Of a stretch of 63,072 nucleotides of DNA, positions 6,101 through 62,981 are shown one piece after another. The notes below the pieces were generated by a model. The model ran no database searches and had not been told where the DNA came from. It was given only the letters and a program-made list of their open reading frames with translations. Position 1 is the first letter of the stretch; each line of letters opens with the position of its first letter. This DNA is from Siminovitchia terrae (GTDB taxonomy: Bacteria; Bacillota; Bacilli; Bacillales; Bacillaceae_C), in contig NZ_QYTW02000031.1 in assembly GCF_003605405.2 (NCBI RefSeq), forward strand, positions 1 to 63,072, read 5' to 3'. A program made the translations under genes and the position numbers.

Positions 6101-6388
6101 ATACAATCACTCCTTATAGTTTTCTTATGGGAAATGATAAATTGTTTATAAGTGATTTTCCATTTATGTGACTTATTCGGGAGGAGAACTTTTTGGGGAA
6201 TTTGTCTGAGCAAGAGGTTCAGAAATGGATGTCCGGTTACAGGATAGAAGCTTGCGGATGAAAAATGGATTGTTCGAATGCAGTTTTTAGAGAATGTTTT
6301 TTGTGAAAATGATTGGGGAGAGTGGAAAGGATACAGTATCACCCCTTTATACAATTAGAGTACAGGGGTTGACGGAATTGGATTTTAA

Positions 6389-6563
6389 CTTTATTCAGCA
6401 GAAGTCTCCCACATCTGTAAGTGGTGAGATGAATGCCTGTTGGTATTCCATTCCCCCGGCTGAATAAAGTCAAAGCCTCCGGCGGATGCTACAGATTTTC
6501 AGAGGAATTTATCGAGCAGAGCTCGATAAAATCCGGGCGCAAATTCGCCAAGGCGTATTTGAT
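6389..6563 (+). repeat. 190-bp TTTAA element, copy 1 (internally shortened, 175 bp)
   Basis: It begins directly after TTTAA (6384-6388) and ends with the family's TTTGAT. The second hairpin is partly deleted: the GGGG...CCCC stem is reduced to a C-run. The remaining 6107-6715 gap, outside this copy and the riboswitch, shows no gene I can support. Confidence 0.85.
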
Positions 6564-6714
6564 ACTGGCAGAGGTTTCCGATTCTTTTTAATTTCGCTTG
6601 ACCCTCGGAATTTTAGTTTGTGAGGGCTTCAGAATTTTCCGTTATGAATATTTGATCACTTCCATTATTTACTGATCCATGTTACGATGTCACCAAGTAC
6701 AATTTTATAGTGAG

Positions 6715-6809
6715 AAACACTAGGGGAATCCTTAAAAAGGACTGAGAGAAGAGTGGAACTCTGATACCCTTATGACCTGATCAGGTTCGTGCCTGCGTAG
6801 GGAAGTGCT
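6715..6809 (+). promoter_or_regulatory. TPP riboswitch (THI element)
   Basis: The conserved thiamine pyrophosphate aptamer is present: an AGGGG segment, CTGAGAGA, ACCCTTATGACCTGATC and TGCCTGCGTAGGGAAGTG. It is followed 28 nt later by an intrinsic terminator and then the tenI-thiSGF operon. This is the usual arrangement in which bound TPP favours early termination. Confidence 0.95.
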
Positions 6810-6837
6810 ATGTTTATTTATCGTTCCAGCTTTTAAC

Positions 6838-6871
6838 AAGCCACTTTCCTAATAAGGAAGGTGGCTTTTTT
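6838..6871 (+). terminator. riboswitch-controlled terminator of the thi operon
   Basis: AAGCCACTTTCCT pairs with AGGAAGGTGGCTT and is followed by a T-run. It lies between the TPP aptamer and the first gene, so it is the expression platform. Confidence 0.85.
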
Positions 6872-6895
6872 AGTGCAAAGGGAGGTGGGTTTGGA

Positions 6896-7513
6896 TTGGA
6901 ACTGATCGCAGTCACGAATGGTCGGCATAGTGTTGACAGGCTCTCTCGTATGATGGTTGAGGTTGAGCCGTTTGTTGACCACTTCATTATTAGAGAGCGG
7001 ACTAAATCGGCCATTGAGTATGTAAAATTGATTGACCAGCTGAACACCGCAAATTTCAATAAAGAAAAGCTGATTATAAATGATAGGGTGGATGTTGCAG
7101 TGGTGGCTGGTATTAATAAAGTACAGCTTCCAGTTCACGGTTTAACATTGGAGCAAGTGCAATTTTGTTTTCCAAATTTACAAGCAGGAAGGTCGATTCA
7201 TTCACTTGAGGAAGCTGAAAAAGCACATCGGTCAGGAGCAAATTGGCTTTTATATGGACATGTATACGAAACGGATTGTAAAAAAGGTCAACCAGGACGC
7301 GGAGTTGAGGAGCTGAAAAAGATTGCAGAAAAAGTTCCGTCTGATATTTATGCGATTGGCGGCATCAAGCCGAGCCATGTTGAGGAACTAAGGAAAATTC
7401 GCATAAAAGGGATTGCAGTCATGTCCTCCATATTCGATCATGCCAATCCTGCCAGGGCTGCGGAAGAATACCGTGACGCATGCCGATATTATCATTCAGT
7501 TGAAAGGAATTGA
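6896..7513 (+). CDS. tenI: thiazole tautomerase TenI
   Basis: This ThiE-like TIM-barrel protein has 205 residues. In Bacillus, TenI aromatises the thiazole phosphate tautomer made by ThiG. The C-terminal DIYAIGGIKPSHVEELRKI and GIAVMSSIF segments are the phosphate-binding part of the fold. GHVYETDCKKGQPGRG matches the TenI/ThiE central loop. The position first in an operon with thiS, thiG and thiF favours TenI over true ThiE. The start is TTG, preceded by GGGAGGTG. Expression is controlled by the upstream TPP riboswitch. Confidence 0.85.
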   Translation: MELIAVTNGRHSVDRLSRMMVEVEPFVDHFIIRERTKSAIEYVKLIDQLNTANFNKEKLIINDRVDVAVVAGINKVQLPVHGLTLEQVQFCFPNLQAGRSIHSLEEAEKAHRSGANWLLYGHVYETDCKKGQPGRGVEELKKIAEKVPSDIYAIGGIKPSHVEELRKIRIKGIAVMSSIFDHANPARAAEEYRDACRYYHSVERN

Positions 7514-7518
7514 ATGCA

Positions 7519-7719
7519 ATGGATATCACGTTAAATGGAAACTCATATGTACTCCCAAAAGATGTCACAAATGTTCAGCAGCTACTTGAACATCTTGAGC
7601 TTTCTGAGCGTATCGTGATTGTTGAAGTAAATAAGGAAATTGTTCAAAAAGAAAATTATGACCGCTCGATAAGGGATCAAGATGAAGTGGAAATGATTCA
7701 TTTTGTCGGAGGAGGATGA
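7519..7719 (+). CDS. thiS: sulfur carrier protein ThiS
   Basis: This ubiquitin-fold protein has 66 residues, the usual ThiS length, and ends in the required Gly-Gly (HFVGGG). ThiF adenylates the C-terminal glycine, which then carries sulfur as thiocarboxylate to ThiG. I chose ATG 7519. An upstream in-frame TTG at 7510 overlaps the tenI stop and would add three residues. The GGAGGAGG encoding the C-terminal glycines doubles as the ribosome binding site of thiG. Confidence 0.9.
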   Translation: MDITLNGNSYVLPKDVTNVQQLLEHLELSERIVIVEVNKEIVQKENYDRSIRDQDEVEMIHFVGGG

Positions 7720-7722
7720 AAG

Positions 7723-8490
7723 ATGTTAAAAATAGGAAATAAATCTTTTCAATCAAGACTGCTGCTGGGGACGGGAAAATATCCGTCTTTCGAGGTTCAA
7801 AAAGAAGCGGTTCGGGTTTCAGAAGCGGAGATTCTTACTTTTGCAGTGAGAAGGATGGATGTATTTGAACCTTCTCAGCCCAATTTTCTAGAAATGCTGG
7901 ATTTATCTAAATATACTCTGCTTCCGAATACGGCAGGAGCAAAAACCGCCGAGGAAGCTGTCCGAACGGCGAAGCTAGCCAAAGCTTCTGGGCTGTGTGA
8001 TATGGTGAAGGTAGAAGTCATTGGATGTGACCGTTCATTGCTGCCGGATCCGGTTGAAACGTTGAAAGCTTCGGAAAAGCTGTTAGAAGAAGGTTTCACT
8101 GTACTCACCTATACTTCAGATGACGTGGTATTGGCGAAAAGGCTGGAGGAAATAGGTGTACATGCAATCATGCCAGGAGCATCGCCAATCGGATCAGGAA
8201 AAGGAATTTTAAATCCGCTTTATTTGAAATTTATTATAGAGCAGTCAAAAGTGCCGGTGATTATTGATGCGGGAATTGGCTCGCCGAAGGACGCCGCGTA
8301 TGCCATGGAGCTCGGAGCTGATGCAGTTCTTTTGAATACTGCTGTTTCGGGTGCAAAAAACCCGGTAAAAATGGCTGAAGCCATGAAGCTGGCGATTCAA
8401 GCTGGACGTCTTGGCTTTGAAGCGGGAAGAATCGATGAGCGGGATTACGCGGTGGCGAGCAGCCCGATGGAAGGGTTGCTTCCAACTTGA
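7723..8490 (+). CDS. thiG: thiazole synthase ThiG
   Basis: The protein has 255 residues and forms a TIM barrel that makes the thiazole phosphate ring from 1-deoxy-D-xylulose 5-phosphate, dehydroglycine and ThiS thiocarboxylate. The Schiff-base lysine is Lys96 in MVKVEVIG. Phosphate-binding glycines are visible in [12 protein letters not shown] and [12 protein letters not shown]. It lies 3 nt after thiS and its TGA overlaps the TTG start of thiF. The thiO gene, which supplies dehydroglycine in B. subtilis, is not in this operon. Confidence 0.95.
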
Positions 8491-9500
8491 ACGGACGATA
8501 TTCGAGGCAAGAATTATTTGAACCGATAGGAGAGGCTGGCCAAAAGAAGATTGGCCAAGCCCATGTTTTGATTATCGGGGCAGGGGCGCTTGGGTCGGCA
8601 AGCGCGGAAATGCTTGTTCGCTCCGGCGTTGGAAAGCTAACGATTGTAGATCGGGACATTCTGGATTGGACAAACTTGCAAAGGCAGCAGCTCTATACAG
8701 AGCAGGATGTGATGGACAAGCTTCCCAAGGCAGTTGCGGCGAAACGTCGTTTAGGAAAAGTGAATAGCCTGATCGAAGTTGAAGCTTTTACAGCAGATGT
8801 AACGGTTGAAAACGCTGAAGAATTAGTTAAAGGGAAAACCCTGATCGTGGATGCGACCGATAATATTGAAACAAGACTTTTAATGAACGACGCGGCTTTA
8901 AAAGCCGGTATCCCATTTTTTATGGGAGCGGTTGTGGCAAGCTATGGTTTGACCTATGCCATTGGGATGGGAGAACACCCATGTCTCCATTGCCTGCTAG
9001 ACACGTTGCCGCCGCAAACGCTGACCTGCGATACGGCAGGGGTAATCAGTCCGATTGTCCAGGTTGTTGCTTCTCATCAGGTGACGAATGTTTTCAAATA
9101 CATCGTCGGAGAAAAAGTGGATCATAGGTTGAAATCTTTTGATCTTTGGAAAGGAGATCAGGCGACAATTGATGTAACGTCCCTTCGCCGCCGTAATTGT
9201 CCCAGTTGCTCTGAGAGAGCAGAGTATCCATTTTTATCGAGGGAAAACCAAACAAAAACAGCTGTTCTATGCGGGCGGGACACCGTGCAGCTCACATTTC
9301 CGGGAAAACGGATTGTAGAACTCAGATCATTGGGCGAATCCATCCGTCCGATTGTGAGTAATTTGATTTCCAATATTCATTTGATTGCCTGTGAATATGA
9401 AGGTCATCGCATTGTTTTATTCCGGGATGGGCGGATGCTTGTGCACGGAACGAAGAATGTTGATCAGGCTAAAAGTGTTGCGGCCCAACTATTGGGTTGA
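8487..9500 (+). CDS. thiF: ThiS adenylyltransferase ThiF
   Basis: This E1-like protein has 337 residues and activates the C-terminus of ThiS with ATP. The nucleotide-binding loop GAGALGS is at 31-37. Two CxxC zinc pairs are at C166/C169 and C238/C241, and a conserved Cys is at 181. The family usually ends near 250 residues, so the last ~90 residues are a C-terminal extension of the kind seen in MoeB/ThiF proteins of bacilli. Its TTG start overlaps the thiG stop (TTGA), indicating coupling. Confidence 0.9.
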
Positions 9501-9510
9501 AAGTGAACGG

Positions 9511-9541
9511 GAGCATTCCTGCTTGAGGAATGCTCTTTTTT
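9511..9541 (+). terminator. terminator of the thi operon
   Basis: GAGCATTCC pairs with GGAATGCTC and is followed by TTTTTT. Confidence 0.9.
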
Positions 9542-9597
9542 GGTGTGTTAGGAACCCCGTTTGTCATTTTCTTTTGGAGGGGAGCTTCTCCTCCTGA

Positions 9598-9680
9598 CAA
9601 TTGTGCGAAATTCAAGATTATCGTGCGAAAAAAGAAAAAATCGTGCGAATACAGCAATTAATCGTGCGAACAACTTTTTT
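9598..9680. repeat. four short direct repeats around TCGTGCGAA
   Basis: The motif (A)TCGTGCGAA, or TTGTGCGAA in the first unit, occurs four times about 20-24 bp apart, separated by AT-rich spacers that differ. This is not a CRISPR because the repeats are too short. It resembles the degenerate intergenic repeat arrays common in Bacillaceae. Confidence 0.6.
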
Positions 9681-10175
9681 CGGTTCGCCCCTTGCCGCCG
9701 CCCTCCGCTTTTCTTGTTGTCCAGCTCCAGCGCTCAGCGACTAGCAGACTTCCTCCTCCTTCCTACAATAAGTCAACATCGGCTCCGACGGACAGGAAGT
9801 CCTAGTGCCACCGAAGACATAGGATGTGGCGACTTGAGGCGGCCTTTGGCTTCGCCGTGTTGTCCGGCTGCGAGTGCCATCGGCTCGAGGTCATAAGCCA
9901 AACGCTGTCGAAGGCAAACTATGCCTTCTTCTGCGTTCGTCTTATGCTTGTCGCCGATAAACAGGCACTCTCCGCTTTTCTTATTCCTTTATCTCGTCAG
10001 GAATCGTCCAGTCTGTACGTCGCTAAACGAGCGCTTCCGCTTTTCTGCTGTCCAGCTGCGGTCGGCAGGGGCTCGAGGTCGCTTCGGTCAAGCCAATGAA
10101 GTCAAAGAACGACTTCACTGGCTTGCCCTCCAGCGCTTGTCGCCCCTTGCCGCCGCCCTCCGCTTTTCTTGTAAC
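9680..10175. repeat. GC-rich dispersed repeat family B, cluster 1
   Basis: Clearly GC-richer than the flanks. Segments such as CCTCCGCTTTTCTTGT (twice), GTCCAGCTCCAGCGCT, AATAAGTCAACATCGGCT and CAGTCTGTACGTCGCTAA recur here and in the clusters at 44.84 and 60.05 kb. No gene is supported between thiF and the Na/Pi transporter. Confidence 0.75.
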
Positions 10176-10274: not shown

Positions 10275-11897
10275 ATGGATTTGCAAACATTGCTTTTCAT
10301 GTTTTTTGGAGGGCTAGGCATCTTTTTATATGGGATTAAGTCAATGGGTGACGGACTCCAAAAAGTGGCTGGAGACGGTCTTCGGGATTTGCTTGACCGT
10401 TTTACGACGAAACCAATTATGGGGGTGCTGACAGGTATTATTGTCACTGTTCTCATCCAATCCAGCTCTGGGACGACGGTTTTGACTATCGGATTGGTGA
10501 CGGCAGGGTTTATGACATTAAGGCAGGCTATTGGGGTCATTATGGGCGCCAATATCGGAACAACTGTCACGGCTTTTATTATTGGGATTAATATTTCTGA
10601 TTATGCTTTGCCGATTATTGCACTTGGTGCATTTTTGATTTTCTTTTTCAAAAACCATAGAGTCAACAATATTGGAACGGTCTTTTTTGGTTTTGGGGCG
10701 CTGTTCTTCGGTTTGAGTCTTATGGGAGATGCGATGAAGCCGCTTCGCGGTGCAGAATTTTTTACTGATTTAACAGTAAGTCTCAGTGATCATCCACTTC
10801 TTGGAGTGCTGGTCGGTGTTATTTTTACTGTTATCGTCCAAAGTTCATCAGCATCTATTGCTCTTCTTCAAACGCTATTTGATCAAGGGACCATTAGCTT
10901 GAATGCAGCCTTGCCCATTTTGTTCGGGGACAATATTGGAACGACGATAACAGCCGTTTTGGCATCTATCGGAGCTTCTGTTGCAGCAAAACGGGCTGCG
11001 CTGACCCATGTTATTTTCAATCTCATAGGGACTATTATTGTTTTAATTTTATTTATTCCATTTATAAATCTGATTGAATACCTGCAGGCAACAATGAGCT
11101 TGAATCCAAAGATGACAATCGCTTTTGCGCACGGAACCTTTAATGTGACGAATACAATCATTCAATTTCCATTCATCGCTGTCTTGGCCTGGATTGTGAC
11201 GAAGCTCGTACCGGGCGAGGATAAGATGATCGAACACAAACCGGTTCATTTGGGTGAAAAATTTATCCGGCAATCTCCGTCTGTTGCTCTTGGACAGGGA
11301 AAGAAGGAAGTTCTTCGCATGGGTGAACTGACCGAGCAAGGGCTTAAAGAAGTAGTGGATTATTATAAAACAAAAGAAAAGAAACACCGTGAGCTTCTTC
11401 CGCAAATTGAAGACGCTCTGAACAATCTAGATAAGGTGATTACGGATTATTTGGTCCAAATATCTTATCACTCTTTGTCCGATCAGGATTTAAAAACACA
11501 TAGTTCACTTTTAAATACGGTGATGGACCTGGAGCGCATCGGTGATCATATTGAAAATATTATGGAACTGATTGACAGCCAGATCAATAATAAAGTGAAG
11601 TTTTCCGAATCGGCTGTCAATGATTTAGACAGAATGTTTGAGCTGACTTCCTCCACTCTTCGTCAGGCGCTTGAAGCCTTGCAGGAGGATAATGAATCTA
11701 AAGCAGGAGCAGTGCTTGCTAATGAAAGACTGATTAATAAAATGGAGCGGGATCTGCGTAAAAAGCATATCCAGCGGCTCAATGACAATCTTTGTACGGG
11801 TACGGCCGGAATTGTTTATGTGGATATCGTCAGTAACCTTGAACGGATTGGGGATCACGCTGTTAACATTGCACAGGCAGTCATTGGGGATATTTAA
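10275..11897 (+). CDS. Na+/phosphate cotransporter family protein with PhoU-like tail (NptA/YjbB type)
   Basis: The protein has 540 residues. The membrane half (about 1-315) carries the inverted duplicated QSSS motifs of the Na/Pi-II family, VLIQSSSGTT near 60-69 and VIVQSSSAS near 184, plus two GxNIGTT motifs. The soluble half (about 335-540) is a PhoU-like helical domain with two ERIGDH(I/A) repeats. These proteins move phosphate with sodium. The PhoU tail suggests regulation by phosphate status. The TAA stop is part of the TTTAA where a 190-bp element begins, so the gene is now separated from its terminator by that insertion. Confidence 0.85.
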   Translation: MDLQTLLFMFFGGLGIFLYGIKSMGDGLQKVAGDGLRDLLDRFTTKPIMGVLTGIIVTVLIQSSSGTTVLTIGLVTAGFMTLRQAIGVIMGANIGTTVTAFIIGINISDYALPIIALGAFLIFFFKNHRVNNIGTVFFGFGALFFGLSLMGDAMKPLRGAEFFTDLTVSLSDHPLLGVLVGVIFTVIVQSSSASIALLQTLFDQGTISLNAALPILFGDNIGTTITAVLASIGASVAAKRAALTHVIFNLIGTIIVLILFIPFINLIEYLQATMSLNPKMTIAFAHGTFNVTNTIIQFPFIAVLAWIVTKLVPGEDKMIEHKPVHLGEKFIRQSPSVALGQGKKEVLRMGELTEQGLKEVVDYYKTKEKKHRELLPQIEDALNNLDKVITDYLVQISYHSLSDQDLKTHSSLLNTVMDLERIGDHIENIMELIDSQINNKVKFSESAVNDLDRMFELTSSTLRQALEALQEDNESKAGAVLANERLINKMERDLRKKHIQRLNDNLCTGTAGIVYVDIVSNLERIGDHAVNIAQAVIGDI

Positions 11898-12073
11898 CTT
11901 CATTCAGCAGAAGTCTCCCACTTTTGTAAGTGGTGAGATGAATGCCTATTGGTATTCCATTCAGTGGGGGTTCAAACCCCGGCTGAATAAAGTTAAAGCC
12001 TCCGGCGAATGCCACAGATTTTCAGTGGAAGCTCGATAAATTCTGGGCGCAAATACGCCAAGGCGCATTTGAT
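11898..12073 (+). repeat. 190-bp TTTAA element, copy 2 (176 bp)
   Basis: It starts directly after the TAA stop codon of the transporter gene (TTTAA 11893-11897) and ends in TTTGAT. Part of the third hairpin (TTATCGAGC arm) is deleted. It sits between the stop codon and the terminator at 12076. Confidence 0.9.
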
Positions 12074-18815: not shown

Positions 18816-19085
18816 TTTCGAAACCTTTTAACTTCATTCAGCATTCAGTGGGGGTTCAAACCCCGGCTGCATAAAGTCAAAGCCTCCGGTGGATGCCACA
18901 GATTTTCAGAGGAAATTTATCGAGCAGAGCTCGATAAAATCTGGGCGCAAATACGCCAAGGCGCATTTGATAGATTTATCAGCATTTGTGAGTTGTTCTA
19001 CAGTTTCAATTGCCGTGGAGTCAATAGCAGGAATCGATCTTAACAAGAATAAAAGGAATATTAAGTCTCCGAATTGAATATATTG
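18816..19085 (-). pseudogene. gene remnant interrupted by element copy 3
   Basis: If the element is removed, the minus strand reads through the junction in one frame (...TNADKS-LKGFENS-stop). The frame is open for about 45 codons but has no start codon. I do not recognise the protein. It could be a chance open frame, so confidence is low. Confidence 0.3.
18832..18971 (+). repeat. 190-bp TTTAA element, copy 3 (140 bp, first hairpin deleted)
   Basis: It follows TTTAA (18827-18831). Positions 12-61 of the element are missing, so the first hairpin is gone while the second hairpin and the whole right half remain. It ends in TTTGAT. Deletion endpoints fall in a repeated ATTCAG, suggesting slippage or recombination. 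Confidence 0.9.
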
Positions 19086-24992: not shown

Positions 24993-25024
24993 CTTTTTCT
25001 CTCCAATACAAGTTATTTTGAACA

Positions 25025-25140
25025 TGAAAAGCACCTTACCTGAAGGCAAGGTGCTTGGCTACATTTCCACAGCAAAATGAACGCGCGGGTAGTCTTTACG
25101 TGCGCGCACCTTGTCAGCCTCACAGGACTGGTTTAAAGGT
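25025..25140 (-). promoter_or_regulatory. PyrR-binding attenuator of pyrP
   Basis: Reading the minus strand, the PyrR anti-antiterminator loop CCAGTCCTGTGAGGCTGACA (25111-25132 region) matches the known binding consensus. It is followed by a terminator hairpin AGCACCTTGCC / GGTAAGGTGCTTTT just before the gene. With UMP, PyrR binding favours termination. Confidence 0.85.
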
Positions 25141-25241
25141 ATTTTTAGATATAATTGTCAAAGATATTATGTCAGTTGCCAAATTGAAAGTCAATCATTT
25201 TTGTCAAAAATATAAAATTGTTGTCAAAATATGGACGGATT

Positions 25242-26942: not shown

Positions 26943-26988
26943 TTGACAGATGAAATAAACTAATATATAGTTGCTTACATAAAGTAAG
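26943..26988 (+). promoter_or_regulatory. promoter and candidate HxlR operators for the catE-like gene
   Basis: TTGACA (26943-26948), a 17-bp spacer and TATAGT (26966-26971) form a strong sigma-A promoter. Two palindromes overlap it: AACTAATATATAGTT (26958-26972) and CTTACATAAAGTAAG (26974-26988). This is the arrangement expected for repression by the divergent HxlR protein. Confidence 0.6.
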
Positions 26989-27857
26989 TGAATAAAAAGG
27001 AGGAGTGGCTTATCGTTAGATCCGCCGATCCTGTCATTGGCACAGTAACATTGACGGTGCAAAACATCAAGCGGATGCTTGCATTTTATATAGATGTTCT
27101 CGGGTTTCGAGTGTATGAACAGGGTCAAAAGAAAGTGTCACTTACAGCGGATGGAAAAACTGTTCTATTAAAGCTTGAAGAAGATAAAGGGGCAAAACTC
27201 CGACCTCCGCATACGACAGGTTTATATCATATTGCTTTTTTACTGCCTGAGAGGGCTGATTTGGCGGATGTCATCAAACATTTGGCCGAGATCCGTTATC
27301 CGCTTCAGGGGGCGTCTGATCATGACGTTAGCGAAGCACTTTATCTTGCGGATCCGGAAGGTAACGGCTTGGAAATTTATGCGGACAGAGATGCAGCCTC
27401 ATGGGAATGGAAGAAAGACCAAGTTTTCATGACGACAAAGCCGCTCGATATAGATGATTTGTTAATGGATGCCTCTGGGACCGGCTGGAATGGAATGCCG
27501 TCTGGAACTTTGATTGGGCATATTCATTTGCAGGTATCCGATTTAGAGGATGCCAAGAGATTCTATTGTGATGGGATTAGCTTTGATCCGGTTCTTCAGT
27601 ACGGAAGCCAGGCATTGTTCATTTCATGGCACAAATATCACCACCATATCGGGCTCAATACTTGGAATAGTGCGGGTGCAGGACCACCAGAGGAAAAAAG
27701 CACAGGCTTGAAGCACTTTACCATATTCTTTTCTGATGAGGCTAAAAGAAGGAAGGCTGTCGCTCGGCTGGAAAAGCTAAATGCTTGGATTATAGAGGAA
27801 AATGGAGCAATAATAACGAAAGATCCGTCAGGAATTTATTTGATTTTGGAAGTTTAA
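26988..27857 (+). CDS. VOC-family ring-cleavage dioxygenase-like protein (CatE/YfiE type)
   Basis: This two-domain vicinal-oxygen-chelate protein has about 289 residues. Putative metal ligands are the His in TGLYHIAF or in IGHIHLQV of the second domain, HHHIGLN, and Glu in the repeated YLADPEGNGLEIYAD. Length and layout match B. subtilis CatE (YfiE), a catechol 2,3-dioxygenase. Oddly, the GTG used here has no upstream binding site. A strong AAGGAGGAG lies inside the frame, 5-10 nt before CTT/ATC/GTT codons with no canonical start. The gene may therefore use a rare start or have lost one. The TAA stop abuts element copy 4. Confidence 0.7.
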   Translation: MNKKEEWLIVRSADPVIGTVTLTVQNIKRMLAFYIDVLGFRVYEQGQKKVSLTADGKTVLLKLEEDKGAKLRPPHTTGLYHIAFLLPERADLADVIKHLAEIRYPLQGASDHDVSEALYLADPEGNGLEIYADRDAASWEWKKDQVFMTTKPLDIDDLLMDASGTGWNGMPSGTLIGHIHLQVSDLEDAKRFYCDGISFDPVLQYGSQALFISWHKYHHHIGLNTWNSAGAGPPEEKSTGLKHFTIFFSDEAKRRKAVARLEKLNAWIIEENGAIITKDPSGIYLILEV

Positions 27858-28047
27858 CTTCATTCAGCAGAAGTCTCCCACTTCAGTAAGTGGTGAGATG
27901 AAAGCATATTGTTATTCCATTCAGTGGGGGTTCAAACCCCGGCTGAATAAAGTTAAAGCCTCCGGCGGATGCCACAGATTTTCAGAGGAAGCTTATCGAG
28001 CGGAGCTCGATAAAATCTGGGCGCAAATACGCCAAGGCGCATTTGAG
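27858..28047 (+). repeat. 190-bp TTTAA element, copy 4 (full length)
   Basis: It starts after the TAA of the catE-like gene (TTTAA 27853-27857) and ends TTTGAG rather than TTTGAT. It separates the catE-like gene from the nitroreductase gene, which were probably one transcription unit. Confidence 0.92.
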
Positions 28048-38542: not shown

Positions 38543-38554
38543 AAAGTGTTTTAA

Positions 38555-38744
38555 CTTCATTCAGCAGAAGTCTCCCACTTCTGTTAGTGGTGAGATGAAT
38601 GCGTATTGGTATTTTATTCAGTAGGGGTTCAAACCCCAGCTGAATGAAGTTAAAGCCTCCGGCGGACGCCACAGATTTTCAGAGGAAATTTATCGAACGG
38701 AGCTCGATAAAATCTGGGCGCAAATACGCCAAGGCGCGTTTGAT
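38555..38744 (+). repeat. 190-bp TTTAA element, copy 5 (full length)
   Basis: It follows TTTAA (38550-38554), is full length and ends in TTTGAT. It lies between the purC stop and its probable terminator at 38780, as copy 2 does at the Na/Pi gene. Confidence 0.93.
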
Positions 38745-44837: not shown

Positions 44838-45141
44838 TTTTCTATCTAGGAATCTATCAACTAGCAGACCCTTTTTCCTTCCGACGATAAGTCAACATCG
44901 GCTTGCCAGGGCTTCGCCGTGTTTCCTTTATCTCGTCGAAGGAATTCCAGTCTGTACGTCGCTAATCGGGCGCTTCCGCTTTTCCTATTGTCTAGCTACG
45001 GTGCCTATCGACTAGCAGACTTCGTTCCTTCTCCTACGATAAGTCAACATCGGCTCGCCTGAGGCATTGCCGTGTTTCCTTTATCTCGTCGAAGGAATTC
45101 CAGTCTGTACGTCGCTAATCGAGAGCTTCCGCTTTTCCTAT
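44838..45141. repeat. GC-rich dispersed repeat family B, cluster 2 (two tandem units)
   Basis: Two units of about 140-150 bp each contain TCAACTAGCAGAC or TCGACTAGCAGAC, GATAAGTCAACATCGGCT, CGCCGTGTTTCCTTT or TGCCGTGTTTCCTTT, CCAGTCTGTACGTCGCTAAT and GCTTCCGCTTTTCCTATT. The second unit ends inside the 3' end of the aminopeptidase gene. Confidence 0.8.
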
Positions 45142-46523
45142 TGCAATCCACCGACAATTTTCTCGTAGTCAACGGGTTTAGGTGCCACTCTGGCTCTTTC
45201 TAGTGCAGGTGTGTCAGGACGGGCAACGTGGTAGACTGCTGCACCCACAATTTCAGCAGTCTCTTGAAGTTTTTCCTTGCTGATCTTATCAAGCGAATCA
45301 TCAGGCGTATGGTACCAAGGCTCTACAGGGTTATGGATGAACAATGCTGCTGGAATGCCTGCTTCATAGAAAGGAACATGGTCACTCCGGCCTTCCTGTC
45401 CGTACGTTAAAGGAGTACCAGTTCTTACTCCGGCAGAGGCTGACAGGTCAGTAACTATGTTTTTCTCTCCGTCCACAGTAAACATGACCAACTCTCCTGC
45501 ATCTCGGCTTCCGACCATATCCATTTGCCACATTCCAACAATCCGGTCTCGCTCATTCTGTGCAAGGGAATCCACATACTCATAAGAGCCAATCAATCCA
45601 AGCTCTTCAGCACCAAAGGTGACAAAGCGGATTTCCGTGTCAGTCGGCATATTGGCCATTACACGTGCCAATTCAAGGGAGGCTGCAACCCCGGAAGCAT
45701 CGTCGTTCGCACCTGGTGCTCCAGGGACAGAGTCGTGATGTGCACCTACAACAACGATTTTGTCTGTTGCTTTATTTTTCTGTGTCGGCTTTTTGACGGC
45801 GATTACATTATGAGATGTTTCCTCAACGATCCGCCCATCAGTAACACTGACTGTAACAGAAATGGTTTGACCTTCCGCTAATGCAGATCTCAGTATTTCA
45901 CCGTCTGTCTGAGAAAGTGCGACAGCTGGTACGTAGTTATCATTTACTTCTCCCAGTGTTCCATTTATTACACCTGATTCATTATTAAAAATGATCACGG
46001 CGGAAGCTCCTGCTTTGGCAGCATTCAATACCTTTTCTGCAAAAGAAATTTCTCCCCTTTGAACTAAGGCAACTTTACCACCCATATCCATGCCTTCCAC
46101 ATCTGAAGCCCGTCCAAGCCCCGCATATACCAAATCCGCAGTTACAACTCCGTTTGGTGTATAAGTGAAACTGTTGGATGACAGGGTCTGTTCATTTGCT
46201 GTAACAAATACCTTGGGAGCATAATAGTTTTCAAACGTAAACGGCTGAATTTCCGTTTCATAACCATAGGAAGAGAATTTATCCTCAATGTATTGGACAG
46301 CTTTCCACTCAGCCTCCGAGCCAGCTACACGTGGTTCTGCAGCCAGTTTTGCAATATGATTATACATGTTATCAGCACGGATCTTTTTGATAATTTTATT
46401 ATCAAAAGCTTTTTGTGCCTGCGCTGGAGGAGCAGAAGGTTCTTTGGCTAAAGCGGCGGGGACTCCGATTGCTAAAGCGGTGGCCATTAAAAGAGCTGTA
46501 AATGTTTTTTTTCTAGGTACCAT
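45138..46523 (-). CDS. ywaD: secreted M28 aminopeptidase with PA domain (YwaD-like)
   Basis: The protein has 461 residues. A signal peptide (about 1-26, ending ALA) is followed by an M28 zinc peptidase split by a protease-associated domain near 130-240. Zinc-site residues lie in GAHHDSVPGAPGANDDASG, FGAEELGLIGS, WQMDMVGS and RSDHVPFYEAGIPA. B. subtilis YwaD is a double-zinc aminopeptidase of the cell surface/medium with the same layout. AGGAGG lies about 11 nt before the ATG. From 46524 to about 46900 I see only AT-rich sequence with no gene. Confidence 0.9.
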   Translation of the reverse strand: MVPRKKTFTALLMATALAIGVPAALAKEPSAPPAQAQKAFDNKIIKKIRADNMYNHIAKLAAEPRVAGSEAEWKAVQYIEDKFSSYGYETEIQPFTFENYYAPKVFVTANEQTLSSNSFTYTPNGVVTADLVYAGLGRASDVEGMDMGGKVALVQRGEISFAEKVLNAAKAGASAVIIFNNESGVINGTLGEVNDNYVPAVALSQTDGEILRSALAEGQTISVTVSVTDGRIVEETSHNVIAVKKPTQKNKATDKIVVVGAHHDSVPGAPGANDDASGVAASLELARVMANMPTDTEIRFVTFGAEELGLIGSYEYVDSLAQNERDRIVGMWQMDMVGSRDAGELVMFTVDGEKNIVTDLSASAGVRTGTPLTYGQEGRSDHVPFYEAGIPAALFIHNPVEPWYHTPDDSLDKISKEKLQETAEIVGAAVYHVARPDTPALERARVAPKPVDYEKIVGGLQ

Positions 46524-53571: not shown

Positions 53572-54424
53572 TTATTCCCTTATCATTAAAATTATTTTCC
53601 CTACATTTTTATTTTCCGTCATGGGCGCATGGGCCTTATTGGCGTCTCCCCAATCCCAAATCGAATCAATGACAGGCTTGAGCTTACCGTCACGGAATCT
53701 TTCAATGGTAAACTCAGAAAAAGACTTTGTCAGTGTTGCTTTCCTTTCAACTGATTGGGAACGAAGCGCGGTGTCGATTATCTGTATTCTTTTAACTTCA
53801 TTCAGCAGAAGTCTCCCACTTCAGTAAGTGGTGAGATGAATGCATATTGGTATTTCATTAAGTGGGGGTTCAAACCCCGGCTGAATAAAGTTAAAGCCTC
53901 CGGCGGATGCCACAGATTTTCAGAGGAAATTTATCGAGCGGAGCTCGATAAAATCTGGGCGCAAATACGCCAAGGCGCATTTGATATATTATTTTTAGCA
54001 AGTTGTCGTCCGGGACTTTTGCTCTTCCCATTGTTCCAATCAAGTTCATCCTTCCATCCATGTCAAGAGAATCGATGTTTTTCTCCCGATCCCACTGTAA
54101 CGATGATATTGGCTCCTGCTTCTCGTGCCAGCTGGATTGCCGCTGCCTCGACTCCGCGTATCCTCCGCCAGTGAGCAGAGCGCAGATACGGTCCCCTATT
54201 TTCCGGCCTTTGACGTTTTGAGCGATCTTTTCAATTGTCCCGCTCGCTCCCAGACCAAGAATATCTGAAGCTCCCGTAGGAGGAGGGTACAGTCCTCGTT
54301 TTTGAAGAAGATCCGCCTGGTTAAGTGCTGTAGCCTTTACCTTTATCAGTATCAGCAATGGTTGGCTCTTTGGATCGTCCAATCTTCAGTTCTAGGGTAC
54401 CTTATCTACAATAATCGATTTCAA
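53572..54424 (-). pseudogene. NAD(P)H-quinone oxidoreductase pseudogene split by element copy 6
   Basis: This is a medium-chain zinc-independent oxidoreductase (quinone oxidoreductase type). Recognisable minus-strand pieces in order are LIKVKATALNQADLLQKRG, PPPTGASDILGLG, GDRICALLTGGGYAE, AAIQLAREAGANIIVTVGS (another frame) and NIDSLDMDGRMNLIGTMG. After the inserted element comes the C-terminal part RSQSVERKATLTKSFSEF, then IWDWGDANKAHAPMTENKN and NVGKIIL. It has at least one frameshift at the start, internal deletions totalling roughly 100 codons, and the 190-bp insertion. AAAGGAG precedes the probable TTG start. Confidence 0.85.
53796..53985 (+). repeat. 190-bp TTTAA element, copy 6 (full length, inside a pseudogene)
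   Basis: Reference copy. Within the element, hairpin 1 is at 17-41 (TCTCCCACTT / AAGTGGTGAGA). Hairpin 2 is at 62-91 (GGGG-TTCAAA-CCCC capped stem). Hairpin 3 is at 118-162 (CAGATTTT / AAAATCTG outer, TTATCGAGC / GCTCGATAA inner). Hairpin 4 is at 163-176 (GGCG / CGCC). Deleting these 190 bp leaves TTTTAA joined to ATATTATT and restores the host frame (L-K-I-I-F-K-R-I). Confidence 0.95.
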
Positions 54425-57194: not shown

Positions 57195-57196
57195 AG

Positions 57197-57360: not shown

Positions 57361-57382
57361 ACATAATATACATTATATTTAA

Positions 57383-57546
57383 CTTCATTCAGCAGAAGTC
57401 TCCCACTTCAGTAAGTGGTGAGATGAATGCATATTGGTATTTCATTCAGTGGGAGTTCACTTCGGCGGATGTCAAAGATTTTCAGAGGAAATTATCGAGC
57501 GGAGCTCGATAAAGTCTGGGCGCAAATACGCCAAGGCGCATTTGAT
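57383..57546 (+). repeat. 190-bp TTTAA element, copy 7 (164 bp, middle deleted)
   Basis: It follows TTTAA (57378-57382). The 3' side of hairpin 2 is deleted (about positions 76-105), so GGGAGTTCAC joins TTCGGCGGATG. Hairpins 1, 3 and 4 remain. It lies 81 bp upstream of kbl. Confidence 0.9.
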
Positions 57547-57626
57547 AGAGAATTTGAGTCATTTTGGCGTGTGTCTTTTTGAAAAGTACAAACATATTTA
57601 TAAATTCCTATGACGGAGGAGTCGAT

Positions 57627-58814
57627 ATGTCGAAAGTGCTGCAGCAATTTTTAACGGAGAATTTGACTGAGCTTCATAGCCAAGGCCTATACAATGAAAT
57701 AGACACGGTTGAAACGCCAAATGGTCCCATTATCAGAATTAATGGGGAAGAGCAAATCAATCTTTCGTCCAATAATTATCTCGGCTTGGCAACGGATGAG
57801 AGATTGAAAGATGCGGTAACGGATGCGGTTAGGAAGTGGGGAGTGGGAGCAGGGGCAGTTCGCCCTATCAATGGGACACTTAAAGTCCACGAAAAGCTGG
57901 AAGAGACACTTGCCGCTTTTAAAGGGACGGAGGCTGCCATCTCCTATCAATCAGGATTTAATTGTAATATGGCGGCCATTTCGGCAGTAATGAATCAAAA
58001 TGATGCCATTTTATCAGATGAGTTGAATCATGCTTCCATTATTGACGGCTGCCGTCTTTCGCGGGCGAAGATCATCCGTTTCAGCCATTCAGACATGGAT
58101 GATTTGCTCAAGAAGGCAAAGGCTGCAAAGGAATTGGGAAGCTACAATAAAATCATGGTGATAACCGACGGTGTTTTTTCGATGGATGGAGACGTTGCCA
58201 AACTGCCGGAAATCGCCGAAATCGCTGAAAAATACAATTTAATCACATATGTTGATGACGCGCATGGATCGGGAGTCCTTGGAAAGGGAGCGGGTACGGT
58301 AAAACATTTTGGTCTTCAGGAAAAGATAGATTTTCAAATTGGTACTCTTTCAAAAGCAATCGGTGTTGTAGGTGGTTATGTTGCAGGAAAAAAATCGCTG
58401 ATTGATTGGCTTAAAGTCAGATCTCGGCCATTTTTATTCTCTACTGCCGTTACACCTGCAGACGCAGCGGCAGCGACAAAAGCGATTGAGCTGATGATGG
58501 AAAGTACGGAGCTTTGTGAACGCTTATGGGAAAACGCAGATTACTTAAAAAGTGGCCTGAAGAAGCTGGGATTTGATATTGGTCACAGCGAAACCCCTAT
58601 AACGCCTTGCATTATCGGGGAGGAGAAAACAACTCAGATGTTTAGCAAGCTTCTTTTTGCTGAGGGAGTTTACGCAAAATCGATTGTTTTTCCTACTGTT
58701 CCAAAGGGGACGGGGCGTGTGAGGAATATGCCGACAGCAGCTCATACGAAGGAGATGCTGGACCGGGCGGTTGCAGTCTATGAAAAAGTGGGAAAGGAAA
58801 TGGGGGTCATTTAA
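57627..58814 (+). CDS. kbl: glycine C-acetyltransferase (2-amino-3-ketobutyrate CoA ligase)
   Basis: This PLP enzyme of the alpha-oxoamine synthase family has 395 residues. It cleaves 2-amino-3-ketobutyrate with CoA to glycine and acetyl-CoA. Motifs are [46 protein letters not shown] and the PLP-lysine segment [16 protein letters not shown]. The partner threonine dehydrogenase gene follows. ATG 57627 has GGAGGAG upstream. The TAA stop is the TTTAA of element copy 8, so the gene is bracketed by copies 7 and 8. Confidence 0.92.
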
Positions 58815-59002
58815 CTTCATTCAGCAGAAGTCTCCACTTCTATAAGTGGTGAGATGAAAGCATGTAGGTATTCCATTCAGTGGGGTTCAAACCCCGGCTG
58901 AATACAGTAAAAGCCTCCGGCGGATGCCACCAATTTTCAGAGGAAATTTATCGAGCAGAGCTCGATAAAATCTGGGCGCAAATACGCCAAGGCGCATTTG
59001 AT
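58815..59002 (+). repeat. 190-bp TTTAA element, copy 8 (188 bp)
   Basis: It starts immediately after the kbl stop (TTTAA 58810-58814) and ends in TTTGAT, 39 bp before the tdh ribosome binding site. It separates kbl and tdh. Hairpin 1 has lost one C, the loop region has lost one G, and the internal GTTAAAG reads GTAAAAG. Confidence 0.93.
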
Positions 59003-59053: not shown

Positions 59054-59995
59054 ATGAAAAAGATCTTGGTGACTGGTTCCTTGGGGCAGATTGGCTCAGA
59101 GCTCGTCATGAAACTTCGTCACGAGTATGGGGACAACAATGTCATTGCATCGGATATCCGCCGTCTGAACAACGAAGTGGTCGAATCAGGCACTTTTATA
59201 GTGCTGGATGTTATGGATGGCAATGAGGTATGGAAAACAGCTAAGACATATGAGGTGGATACAGTCATTCACCTGGCTGCATTGCTTTCCGCTTCAGGGG
59301 AGATGAAGCCGCTGCGGGCATGGAATCTCAACATGGGTGGTCTTATCAATGTGCTGGAGGCTGCGCGAGAGCTTGGTCTGAAAGTTTTTGTACCCAGCTC
59401 CATTGGTGCTTTTGGCCCTGAGACACCGAAGCAGCAAACGCCCCAGATCACGATCCAGCGACCATCTACCATGTACGGAATCAATAAAGTTGCAGGCGAA
59501 CTTCTTTGTGATTACTATTTTCATAAATACGGCGTAGATACACGGGGTGTCCGATTTCCCGGACTTGTCTCACACATGGCTCCTCCGGGAGGTGGTACAA
59601 CAGATTATGCCGTGGAAATCTATTATGAAGCGACCCGGAATAAAAGCTATACCTGTTTTGTCGGTCCCAATACTTGTTTAGACATGATGTATATGCCAGA
59701 TGCTCTGAATGCCATCGTACACCTCATGGAGGCTGACCTTAACAATCTAACATTTCGAAACTCCTATAATATAACGGCAATGAATATTACGCCTGAGGAT
59801 ATCGGCAATGAAATTAAAAGGCATATCCCTTCATTTGTCATTAATTATAAAATTGACCCCATCCGGCAGGCGATAGCTGACAGTTGGCCAGACTCTTTGG
59901 ATGACTCAGCTGCTAGACGGGATTGGGGATTTAAGACAGGATTCGGTTTAACTGAAATGACTGCAGATATGCTAGAAAAAATTAAAGATAAATGA
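59054..59995 (+). CDS. tdh: L-threonine 3-dehydrogenase, short-chain (epimerase-like) type
   Basis: This extended short-chain dehydrogenase has 313 residues. The NAD-binding motif VTGSLGQIGSEL is at about 5-16. The catalytic serine is in VPSSIGAFGP, with YGINKVAGE supplying Tyr and Lys. SDR-type threonine dehydrogenases (not zinc-dependent Tdh) have this sequence style and pair with Kbl. ATG 59054 follows AGGAGG. The frame stays open back into the 190-bp element to 58880, but that extension is element sequence, not protein. Confidence 0.88.
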   Translation: MKKILVTGSLGQIGSELVMKLRHEYGDNNVIASDIRRLNNEVVESGTFIVLDVMDGNEVWKTAKTYEVDTVIHLAALLSASGEMKPLRAWNLNMGGLINVLEAARELGLKVFVPSSIGAFGPETPKQQTPQITIQRPSTMYGINKVAGELLCDYYFHKYGVDTRGVRFPGLVSHMAPPGGGTTDYAVEIYYEATRNKSYTCFVGPNTCLDMMYMPDALNAIVHLMEADLNNLTFRNSYNITAMNITPEDIGNEIKRHIPSFVINYKIDPIRQAIADSWPDSLDDSAARRDWGFKTGFGLTEMTADMLEKIKDK

Positions 59996-59997
59996 TT

Positions 59998-60036
59998 CGA
60001 GCCTCCTGTGTTTATAGCAGGAAGGCTCTTTGTTTT
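59998..60036 (+). terminator. terminator of the kbl-tdh unit
   Basis: GAGCCTCCTG pairs with CAGGAAGGCTC and is followed by TTTG. Confidence 0.75.
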
Positions 60037-60049
60037 GATATACTGAGAC

Positions 60050-60480
60050 TATCTAGAAAAGCGGAAGCGCCTTGATCAGCCCCGACCAGCACAAGACGAA
60101 TCCCGAGGAGGCAGTACTTGAGCCACCACAGGGAAACGGCTTGTGACCTCGAGGGGCTAGGCGCTGGAGCTGGACAAAGAAAAGCGTAAGCGACTTGATC
60201 AGCGCGGGCAAACAAGACGAATCCCGAGGAGGGTAGTACTTGAGCCGCCACAGTGAAGCGGCTTGATCCTTGCGGGGCTAGGCGCTGGCGGCTTTAAGCC
60301 GCGACGTCCTTTCGCTTTGCTTGCACTAGGGCGTCCCTGTCCGTCGGCAGGCTCAGAACGCGACGTCCTTTCGCTTTGCTTGCACTAGGGCGTCCCTGTC
60401 CGTCGGCAGGCTCAGAACGCGACGTCCTTTCGCTTCGCTTGCACTAGGACGTCCCTGTCCGTCGAAGCTGGACAAAGAAA
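60050..60480. repeat. GC-rich dispersed repeat family B, cluster 3
   Basis: Two related units (AAAGCGGAAGCGCCTTGATCAGC and AAAGCGTAAGCGACTTGATC) share AAGACGAATCCCGAGGAGG, GTACTTGAGCC, CACAG and GGGGCTAGGCGCTGG. It ends with GCTGGACAAAGAAAAGC. It is in the opposite sense to clusters 1 and 2. No gene is present between tdh and recQ. Confidence 0.8.
60301..60465. repeat. 59-bp tandem repeat, three copies
   Basis: The unit starting GCGACGTCCTTTCGCTTTGC begins at 60301, 60360 and 60419. Copies 1 and 2 are identical and copy 3 has a few substitutions and is shorter. It is embedded in cluster 3. Confidence 0.9.
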
Positions 60481-60555
60481 AGCTTCTTTTAATTAAATTT
60501 TTCCATAGCAAGTTATACTTTCTTTACTCTACAAAAATTCAGGAGGTCTGTAGCA

Positions 60556-62691
60556 TTGTTGACGAAGGCAAAGGGCTTTCTGCAGTCTTACTTTGGATTT
60601 GACGATTTTCGATCGGGGCAGGATACAATCATTCAAAAAGTGCTGGAGGGTAAGGATACTCTGGGTATTATGCCGACAGGAGGCGGCAAGTCCCTCTGTT
60701 ACCAGATTCCCGCCTTATCGCTGCGCGGAATCACAATTGTTATTTCTCCATTGATCTCGCTGATGAAGGATCAAGTGGATGCACTGGAAAAGGCAGGTAT
60801 CCCCTCTACTTTTATTAACAGCACCGTTGCAGGATCAGAAATGCGGGAGCGGATGTCGGGTTTATATAACGGTAAATATAAGTTGGTTTATATTGCACCT
60901 GAGAGATTGGAAACCGACTATTTCTTAAGACTCCTTAAGGAAGTCCATGTTTCGCTAGTCGCGATAGACGAGGCGCATTGTATTTCGCAGTGGGGCCATG
61001 ATTTTCGACCGAGTTATTTACTGATCCGAAAATTAATCAATAGAATCAAGCCAAAACCGACGGTATTGGCATTGACTGCAACAGCTACTCCGCAGGTGCG
61101 TGAAGATATCCGCCAGCTTTTGGATATTAGTGCGGATAATACGATAGTCACGGGATTTGAAAGGGAAAACCTCCACTTTCATGTCGTAAAAGGGCAGGAC
61201 CGCGATCTGTTTTTAATTGATTATATCCGAAAAAATTCAGGACAAGCTGGAATTGTTTATGCGGCGACCAGGAAAGAAGTGGAGCGGTTATATCATTTAC
61301 TGAAAGCTAAAGGAATTGCGGTAGGGAAGTACCATGCAGGATTATCAGAAAATAGCCGCGGGATTTACCAGGAAAAATTTCTATATGATGATCTTGATGT
61401 GATGATTGCTACAAATGCCTTTGGAATGGGTATCAATAAATCGAACGTCAGGTTTGTGATCCATTATCAGATACCGCGCAATATGGAGTCCTATTATCAG
61501 GAGGCAGGCAGGGCAGGGAGAGATGGGGAAGAAAGTGATTGCATTCTGCTTTTCGCTCCCCAGGACAGCCATATCCAATCATTTCTCATTGACCAGTCTG
61601 AAATGGATGAACAGCGTAAGGAAAATGAGTTTGGTAAACTGAGAAAAATGGTTGCCTATGGCCATACAGAGTCTTGTTTGCAGCAGTATATTCTGCACTA
61701 TTTTGGCGAGGAAGATGCTCCTGTTTGTGGAAAATGCGGTAACTGTACCGATGATAGGGAACAAGTTGATGTGACCGTTGATGCCCAAATGGTTTTATCT
61801 TGTATTAGGCGAATGAATGAGAGATTTGGGAAAACGATGATTGCTAAAGTGCTGACCGGTTCCTCGGACCAAAAAATACGAAGCTTCGGCTTTGACCAAC
61901 TGTCTACCTATGGAATTATGAAAAATAAGACCCAGAAGGAGACAATGGAGTTCATCGACTTTTTAACGGCAGAGGGGTATTTACGTCCTACTGATGGGTC
62001 TTACCCCATATTGATGTTGACCGAAATAGCTGGGGATGTTTTGCGCGGAAAAGAAAAAGTGACGAAGAAGGAAAATGTGCGTATTACACAAATTGTGGAA
62101 GACAACATGCTGTTTGAGTTGCTGCGCAAACTTAGAAAAGAGATTGCTGATGGAGAAAATGTTCCGCCATACATCATTTTTTCAGATGTGACGTTAAAAG
62201 AAATGAGTGCATTACTTCCAAGAAACGAGGTGGAGCTAATGCAAATTAAGGGTGTTGGAGAGAGGAAGCTGGAGGCGTACGGGCCGGCTTTTCTAAAAGC
62301 AATAAATCAGTATTGTGAGGAGCAGGGGATAGAAAGGACGGAAATGAGTCTTCCAGTTGGACAGGCACCCAAAAAGCAATCAGAGAGAACTTTAAACAAG
62401 GAACCTAGCCATCATGTAACTTATCGGTTGTTGGAGGAGGGCCTCTCCATTGCGGAAATTGCCGCTGAACGCGGCGTGACGGAAAGAACCATTGAGGGAC
62501 ATTTGTTAAAATGTCCGGGCGATGGGTTGGAAGTGGATTGGTCCCGCTTTGTTCCCTCTGAATTTGAGCCATTTATTCGGGAGGCAGTTGAACAAGTAGG
62601 GATGGAGAGATTAACGCCGATCAAAGAACTTCTATCAGAGGAAATCAGTTTTTTCATGATTAGAGCTTATTTAGAAAAACAGAAAGCGTAA
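60556..62691 (+). CDS. recQ: ATP-dependent DNA helicase RecQ
   Basis: The protein has 711 residues. The helicase core carries Walker A MPTGGGKS near 39-46 and DEAH near 138, with QWGHDFRPSY. The motif VI region is QEAGRAGRDG. A RecQ C-terminal zinc site (CLQQYILHYFG, CGKCGNC) follows, then an HRDC domain near 525-595. The last ~90 residues form a helix-turn-helix-like extension (LSIAEIAAERGVTERTIEGH). It unwinds DNA 3'-5' in recombination and fork repair. The start is TTG, 9 nt after AGGAGG. Confidence 0.93.
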   Translation: MLTKAKGFLQSYFGFDDFRSGQDTIIQKVLEGKDTLGIMPTGGGKSLCYQIPALSLRGITIVISPLISLMKDQVDALEKAGIPSTFINSTVAGSEMRERMSGLYNGKYKLVYIAPERLETDYFLRLLKEVHVSLVAIDEAHCISQWGHDFRPSYLLIRKLINRIKPKPTVLALTATATPQVREDIRQLLDISADNTIVTGFERENLHFHVVKGQDRDLFLIDYIRKNSGQAGIVYAATRKEVERLYHLLKAKGIAVGKYHAGLSENSRGIYQEKFLYDDLDVMIATNAFGMGINKSNVRFVIHYQIPRNMESYYQEAGRAGRDGEESDCILLFAPQDSHIQSFLIDQSEMDEQRKENEFGKLRKMVAYGHTESCLQQYILHYFGEEDAPVCGKCGNCTDDREQVDVTVDAQMVLSCIRRMNERFGKTMIAKVLTGSSDQKIRSFGFDQLSTYGIMKNKTQKETMEFIDFLTAEGYLRPTDGSYPILMLTEIAGDVLRGKEKVTKKENVRITQIVEDNMLFELLRKLRKEIADGENVPPYIIFSDVTLKEMSALLPRNEVELMQIKGVGERKLEAYGPAFLKAINQYCEEQGIERTEMSLPVGQAPKKQSERTLNKEPSHHVTYRLLEEGLSIAEIAAERGVTERTIEGHLLKCPGDGLEVDWSRFVPSEFEPFIREAVEQVGMERLTPIKELLSEEISFFMIRAYLEKQKA

Positions 62692-62692
62692 A

Positions 62693-62735
62693 ATAACCCG
62701 CCAAACCACTTATGCATCGTTTTGGCGGGTCTTTC
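62693..62735 (+). terminator. recQ terminator
   Basis: ACCCGCCAAA pairs with TTTGGCGGGT and is followed by CTTTCTT. Confidence 0.85.
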
Positions 62736-62741
62736 TTAGGA

Positions 62742-62763
62742 GTTAATCAAACGATTGATTAAC
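62742..62763. promoter_or_regulatory. palindrome GTTAATCAAAcgaTTGATTAAC
   Basis: Near-perfect palindrome of the kind bound by TetR-family repressors. A second copy lies at 63009-63029. Confidence 0.5.
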
Positions 62764-62791
62764 CGAAGTGGCCAGAGTAGAAGTGCTTTAA

Positions 62792-62981
62792 CTTCATTCA
62801 GCAGAAATCTCCCACTTTTATAAGTGGTGAGATGAAAGCATATTGGTATTCCATTCAGTGGGGGTTCAAACCCCGGCTGAATACAGTAAAAGCCTCCGGC
62901 GGATGCCACATATTTTTAGAGGAAATTTATCGAGCTGAGCTCGATAAAATCTGGGCGCAAATACGCCAAGGCGCATTTGAT
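62792..62981 (+). repeat. 190-bp TTTAA element, copy 9 (full length)
   Basis: It follows TTTAA (62787-62791) and ends in TTTGAT. It lies between two similar palindromes. All four hairpins are intact with a few substitutions. Confidence 0.94.

Follow-up and report, generated by a model that had tools for sequence, protein, structure and literature searches.

A high-copy, gene-free 190-bp repeat of Siminovitchia terrae that resembles IS200/IS605 elements in target, left end and strand preference

A 63,072-nucleotide stretch of the Siminovitchia terrae genome (the window, by which we mean this whole stretch; it is contig C25 of a 5.30-Mb genome in 68 contigs) carries nine copies of a 190-bp element that contains no genes, and all nine lie on the plus strand. 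This element is very probably a non-autonomous member of the IS200/IS605 type that depends on a Y1 (HUH) transposase acting in trans, as the initial annotation had proposed. The assignment is well supported for the target, the left end and the strand.

Copies, target and insertion sites

Every copy in the window is preceded by TTTAA and ends in TTTGA (9/9 for each), with TTTGAT at the end of eight, and eight of the nine begin with CTTCATTCAGC, copy 1 beginning with CTTTATTCAGC. Copies 4, 5, 6 and 9 are exactly 190 bp and copy 8 is 2 bp shorter, and copies 1, 2, 3 and 7 have been shortened by internal deletions (Table 1); both the repeat and the full length given in the initial annotation were confirmed. 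Nineteen sites matched TTTAACTTCATTCAGC with three or fewer mismatches, compared to a mean of 1.07 and a maximum of 6 in 100 shuffles. Across the whole genome, a search allowing at most one mismatch returned 412 + 384 pattern matches, a count that also includes the internal inverted partner of the left end, and 0 with the reversed control. We sampled 1,263,072 bases (1.26 Mb) of this genome, consisting of 400 kb of contig C1, 400 kb of C12, 340 kb of C23, 60 kb around transposase genes on C45/C4, and the window, and obtained 135 matching rows, 112 of which are full length. Four of the 135 rows are spurious (two self-palindrome matches that fall within another copy, and two repeat counts across scaffold joins with a single N), leaving ~131 distinct copies and thus, by extrapolation, ~550 in the genome. 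Unscored first-look searches gave 608 and 614 candidates genome-wide, and these counts are noisy, as ~4–28 candidates appear even in genomes of the same family that have no element match. The single N bases are joined to duplicated stretches (C1:244527-244790, C1:246390-246700, and locus L016 near 1079 and 2403); these are scaffold joins of overlapping contig ends, which yield false extra copies.

An exact TTTAA stands to the left of 101/112 full copies, in agreement with the fixed 5' target proposed earlier, and the left flank is otherwise unconserved. The base following TTTGA is T in 110/112 full copies, and the first base of the right flank is A or T in 95/112, the remainder being weakly A-rich. 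The cleanest empty sites in relatives are those of copy 2 in genome G001 and of copy 4 in G003 and G001, and the former indicates that the last T of TTTGAT belongs to the element. The absence of copy 8 from G001 and G002 has less exact junctions. No target duplication was seen at the empty sites of copies 2, 4 and 8. Insertion 3' of a fixed target of 4–5 nt without duplication, as in IS200/IS605 elements, was thus found, and the claim of mobility held. By interval comparison, G003 has a full or partial copy at 5/9 window sites and G004 has a partial copy at 2/4 assessable sites and, at one more, a 15-nt match that looks like a remnant. No copy stands at 8 window sites in G001 and at 4 in G002, although not every absence is a clean empty site (the copy 6 interval, for example, is shorter as a whole). 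The closest relatives share a copy at about half of the window sites, and the presence and absence of copies by interval shows that the family has both shared and lineage-specific insertions. This is neither the pattern of universally filled sites and vertical inheritance at all loci nor that of insertion with duplication, the outcomes that the initial annotation had set against its own reading.

These data also bear on whether the element could be a classical miniature inverted-repeat transposable element (MITE), with terminal inverted repeats, target duplication and a DDE transposase as its mover. It is short, high-copy, gene-free and intergenic like a MITE, and an internal inverted partner of its left end exists. 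However, the two ends, CTTCATTCAGC and GCATTTGAT, are not complementary, and there are thus no terminal inverted repeats; the empty sites show no duplication, and the copies have a strong replication-strand bias. We consider a MITE origin extremely improbable.

Of the joined flanks, 4/110 have a frame of 200 or more codons running across the insertion site, compared with 57% of 2815 leading-sense TTTAA sites, and a frame of at least 100 codons ends in the TAA of TTTAA in 15/110 copies, compared with 61/2815 TTTAA sites. Surviving insertions are intergenic or lie exactly behind stop codons, a pattern that most simply results from selective loss of other insertions. There is no identical pair among the 112 full copies (median nearest-neighbor identity 0.963, maximum 0.984), and thus the burst is not fresh, amplification in this genome probably being over or slow. 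The enzyme that amplified the element may be gone from the genome. At C7:27540-27918 two copies form a head-to-tail tandem that is joined exactly as TTTGAT-CTTCATTC, which is compatible with a joined-ends intermediate.

Orientation and replication

We assigned the leading and lagging strands from GC skew, the G-rich strand being taken as leading, as is usual in Bacillota. C1 and C23 have a negative skew, whereas that of C12 and the window is positive. The copies number 1 plus and 35 minus on C1, 1 plus and 39 minus on C23, 38 plus and 4 minus on C12 (two of these four being self-palindrome rows) and 9 plus and 0 minus in the window, so their orientation switches between contigs with the sign of the skew. 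By this assignment, the top strand of 109/112 full copies is leading-sense, i.e. the lagging-strand template. TTTAA is itself slightly rarer on the leading-sense strand (2881 sites vs 3089), and thus target supply does not explain the strand bias. With open reading frames (ORFs) of at least 120 codons called (792 leading, 208 lagging) and 109 full copies classified, the copies between two lagging-strand genes are leading-sense without exception (8/8), and the three orientation exceptions all sit between leading-strand genes. Orientation tracks replication, not transcription of the flanking genes.

In two 400-kb stretches from another genus, 7/7 element matches agree with the local skew, as read from the match listing. 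Three further rows in those stretches are isolated hairpins. Near-perfect hairpins at 88749 of the G375 stretch and 316128 of the G393 stretch resemble the inner left stem and stand without other element parts; these isolated hairpins are perhaps terminators or remnants. Among known elements, IS608 and ISDra2 use the lagging-strand template, according to PMC6006769.

Left end and right half

The left end of the element consists of TTTAAC, ~12 nt, GAAG, a bulged hairpin and GATGAAT. IS605-type elements elsewhere have, upstream of tnpA, TTTAAC, ~12–13 nt, GAAG or similar, a hairpin and GATGAAT; the IS605-type element of G127 has a different target. The left end is thus common to a group of IS605-type elements, in support of the IS200/IS605 reading in the initial annotation. 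We expressed it as the signature TTTAAC-N(9-15)-GAAG-N(14-85)-GATGAAT, which was composed after inspection of several fitting elements. Outside the copies it occurs once in the 1.26 Mb, at the left end of the tnpB element at C1:317464. Among the 12 transposase loci of this genome it finds the tnpB elements C1:317464 and C21:24608, two more matches being 190-bp copies, and in 30 tnpA loci of other families it finds one, the tnpA+tnpB element of G093. The 23 loci of relatives gave none besides one 190-bp copy, and 8 wider stretches gave the G093 element again and an element on a Calditerrivibrio plasmid. We also aligned the left end with three tnpA elements, the plasmid elements lying outside this test, and compared the scores to those of dinucleotide shuffles; the G093 match was strong, its score being reached by 1/2000 shuffles.

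The left hairpin has a single bulged T and GAAG at its 5' foot, and its folding score (z = -4.1) is close to that of the hairpin at L020 (-4.0), with -2.5 at L291 and -0.7 at L265, where the stretch ends before the 3' arm. As in IS200/IS605 elements, a tetranucleotide thus precedes the subterminal hairpin of the left end; GAAG, which also stands there in IS605-type elements that share the TTTAAC target, may function as the guide. An internal guide, in which TTTAAC and the next bases would pair with an internal GTTAAA around position 100, was dropped after its prediction failed in G025. There, copies with GTGAAA were expected at TTTCA, and the nine copies stand at TTTAA (five), TTTCA (one), TATAA (one), ATACA (one) and an unreadable site (one).

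The right half is a folded domain that covaries. Copy 6 as a whole folds as single-stranded DNA with z = -6.5. In a set of 28 diverse copies, 97.3% of the pairs are kept for the right domain together with one hairpin. Cells with both sides of a pair changed number 22, compared to 5.2 in shuffles (0/500 reach this), and slid controls gave at most 3. Two of the five covariation measures concern pairs with a double change (6/29), which 22/500 shuffles reach, and further pair types, which 235/500 reach. In the 112 full copies of this genome, stem positions vary by 0.026 per site per copy compared with 0.051 elsewhere. Furthermore, stem changes that keep top-strand G-T pairs are favored (82:73 vs 153:244, p = 0.003, a value that is too small because the copies are related). 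The subterminal hairpins described in the initial annotation were thus found at both ends, with a bulged hairpin on the left and a folded domain on the right.

Alternatively, the element could be mainly a selected RNA or regulatory unit, an element of 3' untranslated regions, whose strand bias would come from selection on orientation. The covariation, the halved variation in stems and the stop codons that TTTAA supplies in 15/110 copies all fit this idea. It is nonetheless very unlikely as an explanation of the repeat, because orientation follows replication and not the flanking genes, and because the target, the empty sites and the left end are those of a transposon.

The position of each copy, and of the two modules in copy 6, is given in Table 1. 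Copy 3 lost its left hairpin by a deletion between CATTCAG repeats. Four shorter forms without the IS605-type hairpin in this genome show three distinct junctions, so that most of the deletions probably arose independently.

Table 1. Positions in the window of the nine copies and of two modules of copy 6
Feature	Position	Strand	Length (bp)	TTTAA	Remarks	Relatives
Copy 1	6389..6563	+	175	6384-6388	internal deletion	no match in orthologous G003/G001 interval
Copy 2	11898..12073	+	176	11893-11897	TAA of TTTAA is stop codon of ORF 10275-11897	empty site TTTAA-ATATAAAG in G001; broken copy in G003
Copy 3	18832..18971	+	140	18827-18831		no element match in G003/G001
Copy 4	27858..28047	+	190	27853-27857	ends TTTGAG; TTTAA overlaps stop codon of ORF 26988-27857	empty sites in G003 (CTTAA) and G001 (TTTCA)
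Copy 5	38555..38744	+	190	38550-38554		full orthologous copy in G003; 15-nt match only in G004
Copy 6	53796..53985	+	190	53791-53795	query copy	no element match in G001-G004; whole interval shorter there
Copy 7	57383..57546	+	164	57378-57382	internal deletion	partial orthologous copies in G003, G004
Copy 8	58815..59002	+	188	58810-58814	TTTAA overlaps stop codon of ORF 57564-58814	full in G003, partial in G004, absent from G001 and G002
Copy 9	62792..62981	+	190	62787-62791		orthologous copy in G003
Copy 6, left-end module	53808..53843	+			GAAG, hairpin TCTCCCACTT-CAGT-AAGTGG-T-GAGA (bulged T), TGAATGC	
Copy 6, right-half folded domain and right end GCATTTGAT	53896..53985	+			covariation, 28 sequences	

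The window also contains a second repeat family, at 9704-10051 and 44910-45143, with the motifs TTTATCTCGTC, GACTAGCAGACTTC and ATAAGTCAACATCG; each of its four motifs occurs 6 to 20 times in the 1.26 Mb, and it is unlinked to the 190-bp element. The window's two Rfam matches are ordinary, a TPP riboswitch (6712-6820) and a PyrR binding site (25024-25143). No copy of the element matches Rfam at gathering score, the top sub-threshold match of copy 6 being Ocean-V (22.7 bits vs 75).

Transposase search, related systems and significance

In the mechanism that we favor, the top strand would be exposed as single-stranded DNA on the lagging-strand template, where TnpA would bind the left subterminal hairpin. 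It would use the adjacent guide-like GAAG, presumably by guide pairing, to cut behind TTTAA at the left, and would recognize the right end and cut behind TTTGAT. The excised strand, perhaps as a single-strand circle, would then be rejoined behind another TTTAA at the fork without target duplication.

We searched for the enzyme among the HUH proteins of the Pfam family Y1_Tnp. The S. terrae genome gave 4 Y1_Tnp matches and 10 OrfB matches, and all the Y1 tnpA and tnpB matches lie on contigs other than the window's; for these two families the window is thus free of transposase genes, as stated in the initial annotation. That annotation had also suggested looking for tnpA and/or tnpB inside a longer element that has these ends, and this search was negative in the loci fetched from this genome, eight relatives and 15 further genomes, each taken as the match with 1.5 kb on either side, so that longer elements could escape. 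The element matches in the 12 loci of this genome are all complete copies that stand apart from the transposase elements; one lies ~45 bp to the right of the tnpB element on C1. In the eight relatives (23/23 matches) no transposase with the element's ends was found, only whole or partial separate copies. The IS200-type tnpA of this genome (C12:346820) and its broken relatives were set aside, since inspection by eye showed different ends.

Within the order the element has a patchy distribution. It matches in 12/34 genomes of the family and in 27/397 genomes of an even draw of the order, for which only the two best candidates per genome were scored; in the same draw, two further genera (g60 and g82) have 70–188 candidates in 11 genomes. 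Plasmid and phage collections gave no DNA match to the element, and three 16–19-nt stretches of it are absent from open-licence PubMed Central papers.

A further candidate for the mover is the single-copy RAYT (TnpA-REP) gene of this genome, a 189-codon open frame at C13:34.5-35.1 kb, with the element as its REP/REPIN-like substrate. Within the genus the distribution fits: the three high-copy genomes have this RAYT, which is missing from the two in which the element has no match, and in the 34-genome family the five genomes whose RAYT shows 70% identity or more (G000, G003, G004, G011 and G025) all carry the element. However, the RAYT gene is flanked by its own palindromes (GGGGTCAGACCCC), a few REPIN-like doublets of which occur elsewhere, and five RAYT genes have palindromes of the GGGGTC type, and not the element, in their flanks. 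Furthermore, 15 element matches occur in G001, which lacks this RAYT, the RAYTs in the Y1 loci fetched from other families (30/38) do not exceed 55% identity, no Y1 match was obtained in two of the high-copy genomes, and the left end of the element is of IS605 type. We thus rejected RAYT as the driver, a role that we consider improbable. The GGGGTCAGACCCC doublets lie at C1:348223, C1:378990 and C23:272439, and the RAYT gene locus is L011.

Several observations weigh against an IS200/IS605 origin. The left-end signature, besides having been drawn from fitting elements, misses the IS605-type elements C32:41282, G317, G127 and Alkalihalophilus OF4, and the alignment is weak for G317 and G127, whose scores are reached by 101/2000 and 72/2000 shuffles, respectively. 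Shorter forms without the IS605-type hairpin occur in this genome and in other genera. None of the 4/4 tnpA and 8/10 tnpB loci examined in this genome is bounded by the element's ends, nor is any of the 30/38 tnpA matches fetched from the 15 further genomes, and G156 and G276 (70 and 101 first-look candidates; both draft assemblies) gave no Y1 match. A strand bias is not universal in the IS605 family, since 22 IS605 copies of another bacterium show no preference (10/22), as reported in PMC7290912. Finally, the right end GGCGCATTTGAT is unlike those of the elements that share the left end, which have GAAG or GAAA, a hairpin, and GTTCAC or GTTCAT. By eye the right terminus GCATTTGAT mismatches five IS605-type elements (L264, OF4, Calditerrivibrio, L020 and L016), and no relative with a matching right end was found among the elements compared.

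The IS200/IS605 reading thus stands for target, left end, mobility and strand but not for the right end, and derivation from an IS605 element by loss of its middle is not supported. Because of this mismatch we regard the element as a variant, not a plain deletion product, and we would class it, as a variant with a very high copy number, among the IS605-derived non-autonomous elements known as palindrome-associated transposable elements (PATEs). A composite is rather unlikely: an IS605-type left end would be joined to an unrelated folded, covarying right domain, either a new kind of right end or the target of a second factor, as a ~90-nt module spread to hundreds of sites in several Bacillales lineages.

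The PATEs of Haloquadratum walsbyi (PMC3119063) are similarly gene-free, have near-terminal IS605-like palindromes and no terminal inverted repeats, and are mobile though the transposases are mostly broken. In contrast, the S. terrae element is one family of ~550 copies in one bacterial genome, with a distinct folded right half, and only its left end matches local IS605-type elements. The IS605/IS1341-type elements C1:317464, C21:24608, G093 and that of the Calditerrivibrio nitroreducens plasmid have the same TTTAAC, ~12 nt, GAAG, hairpin, GATGAAT left end. They differ in their GAAG/GAAA-hairpin-GTTCAC/T right ends, where seen (that of G093 was not), and in carrying tnpB, and in two cases also tnpA, whereas the 190-bp element is gene-free. 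REP/REPIN sequences with RAYT (PMC6006769) are likewise short, gene-free, intergenic and structured, with a Y1 enzyme acting in trans as the supposed mover. REPs are 21–65 nt, however, whereas the element is 190 bp with a fixed TTTAA target and an IS605-type left end, and the local RAYT has other palindromes. The bcr1-bcr3 repeats of the Bacillus cereus group, which PMC3446304 describes as high-copy, MITE-like and intergenic, are likened here by description and not by sequence.

The element is an example of a passenger that derives from IS605, reaches hundreds of copies per genome and has a right end without a match, and it lets one ask what right end a Y1 transposase accepts and how such elements persist after loss of their enzyme. 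Were the composite origin true, a structured RNA or single-stranded DNA module would be spreading although it has no transposase of its own, and in some hosts it would perhaps do without any Y1 enzyme. The large natural set of single-strand-type insertions, with 109/112 in one sense, is a good in vivo record of lagging-strand-template targeting.

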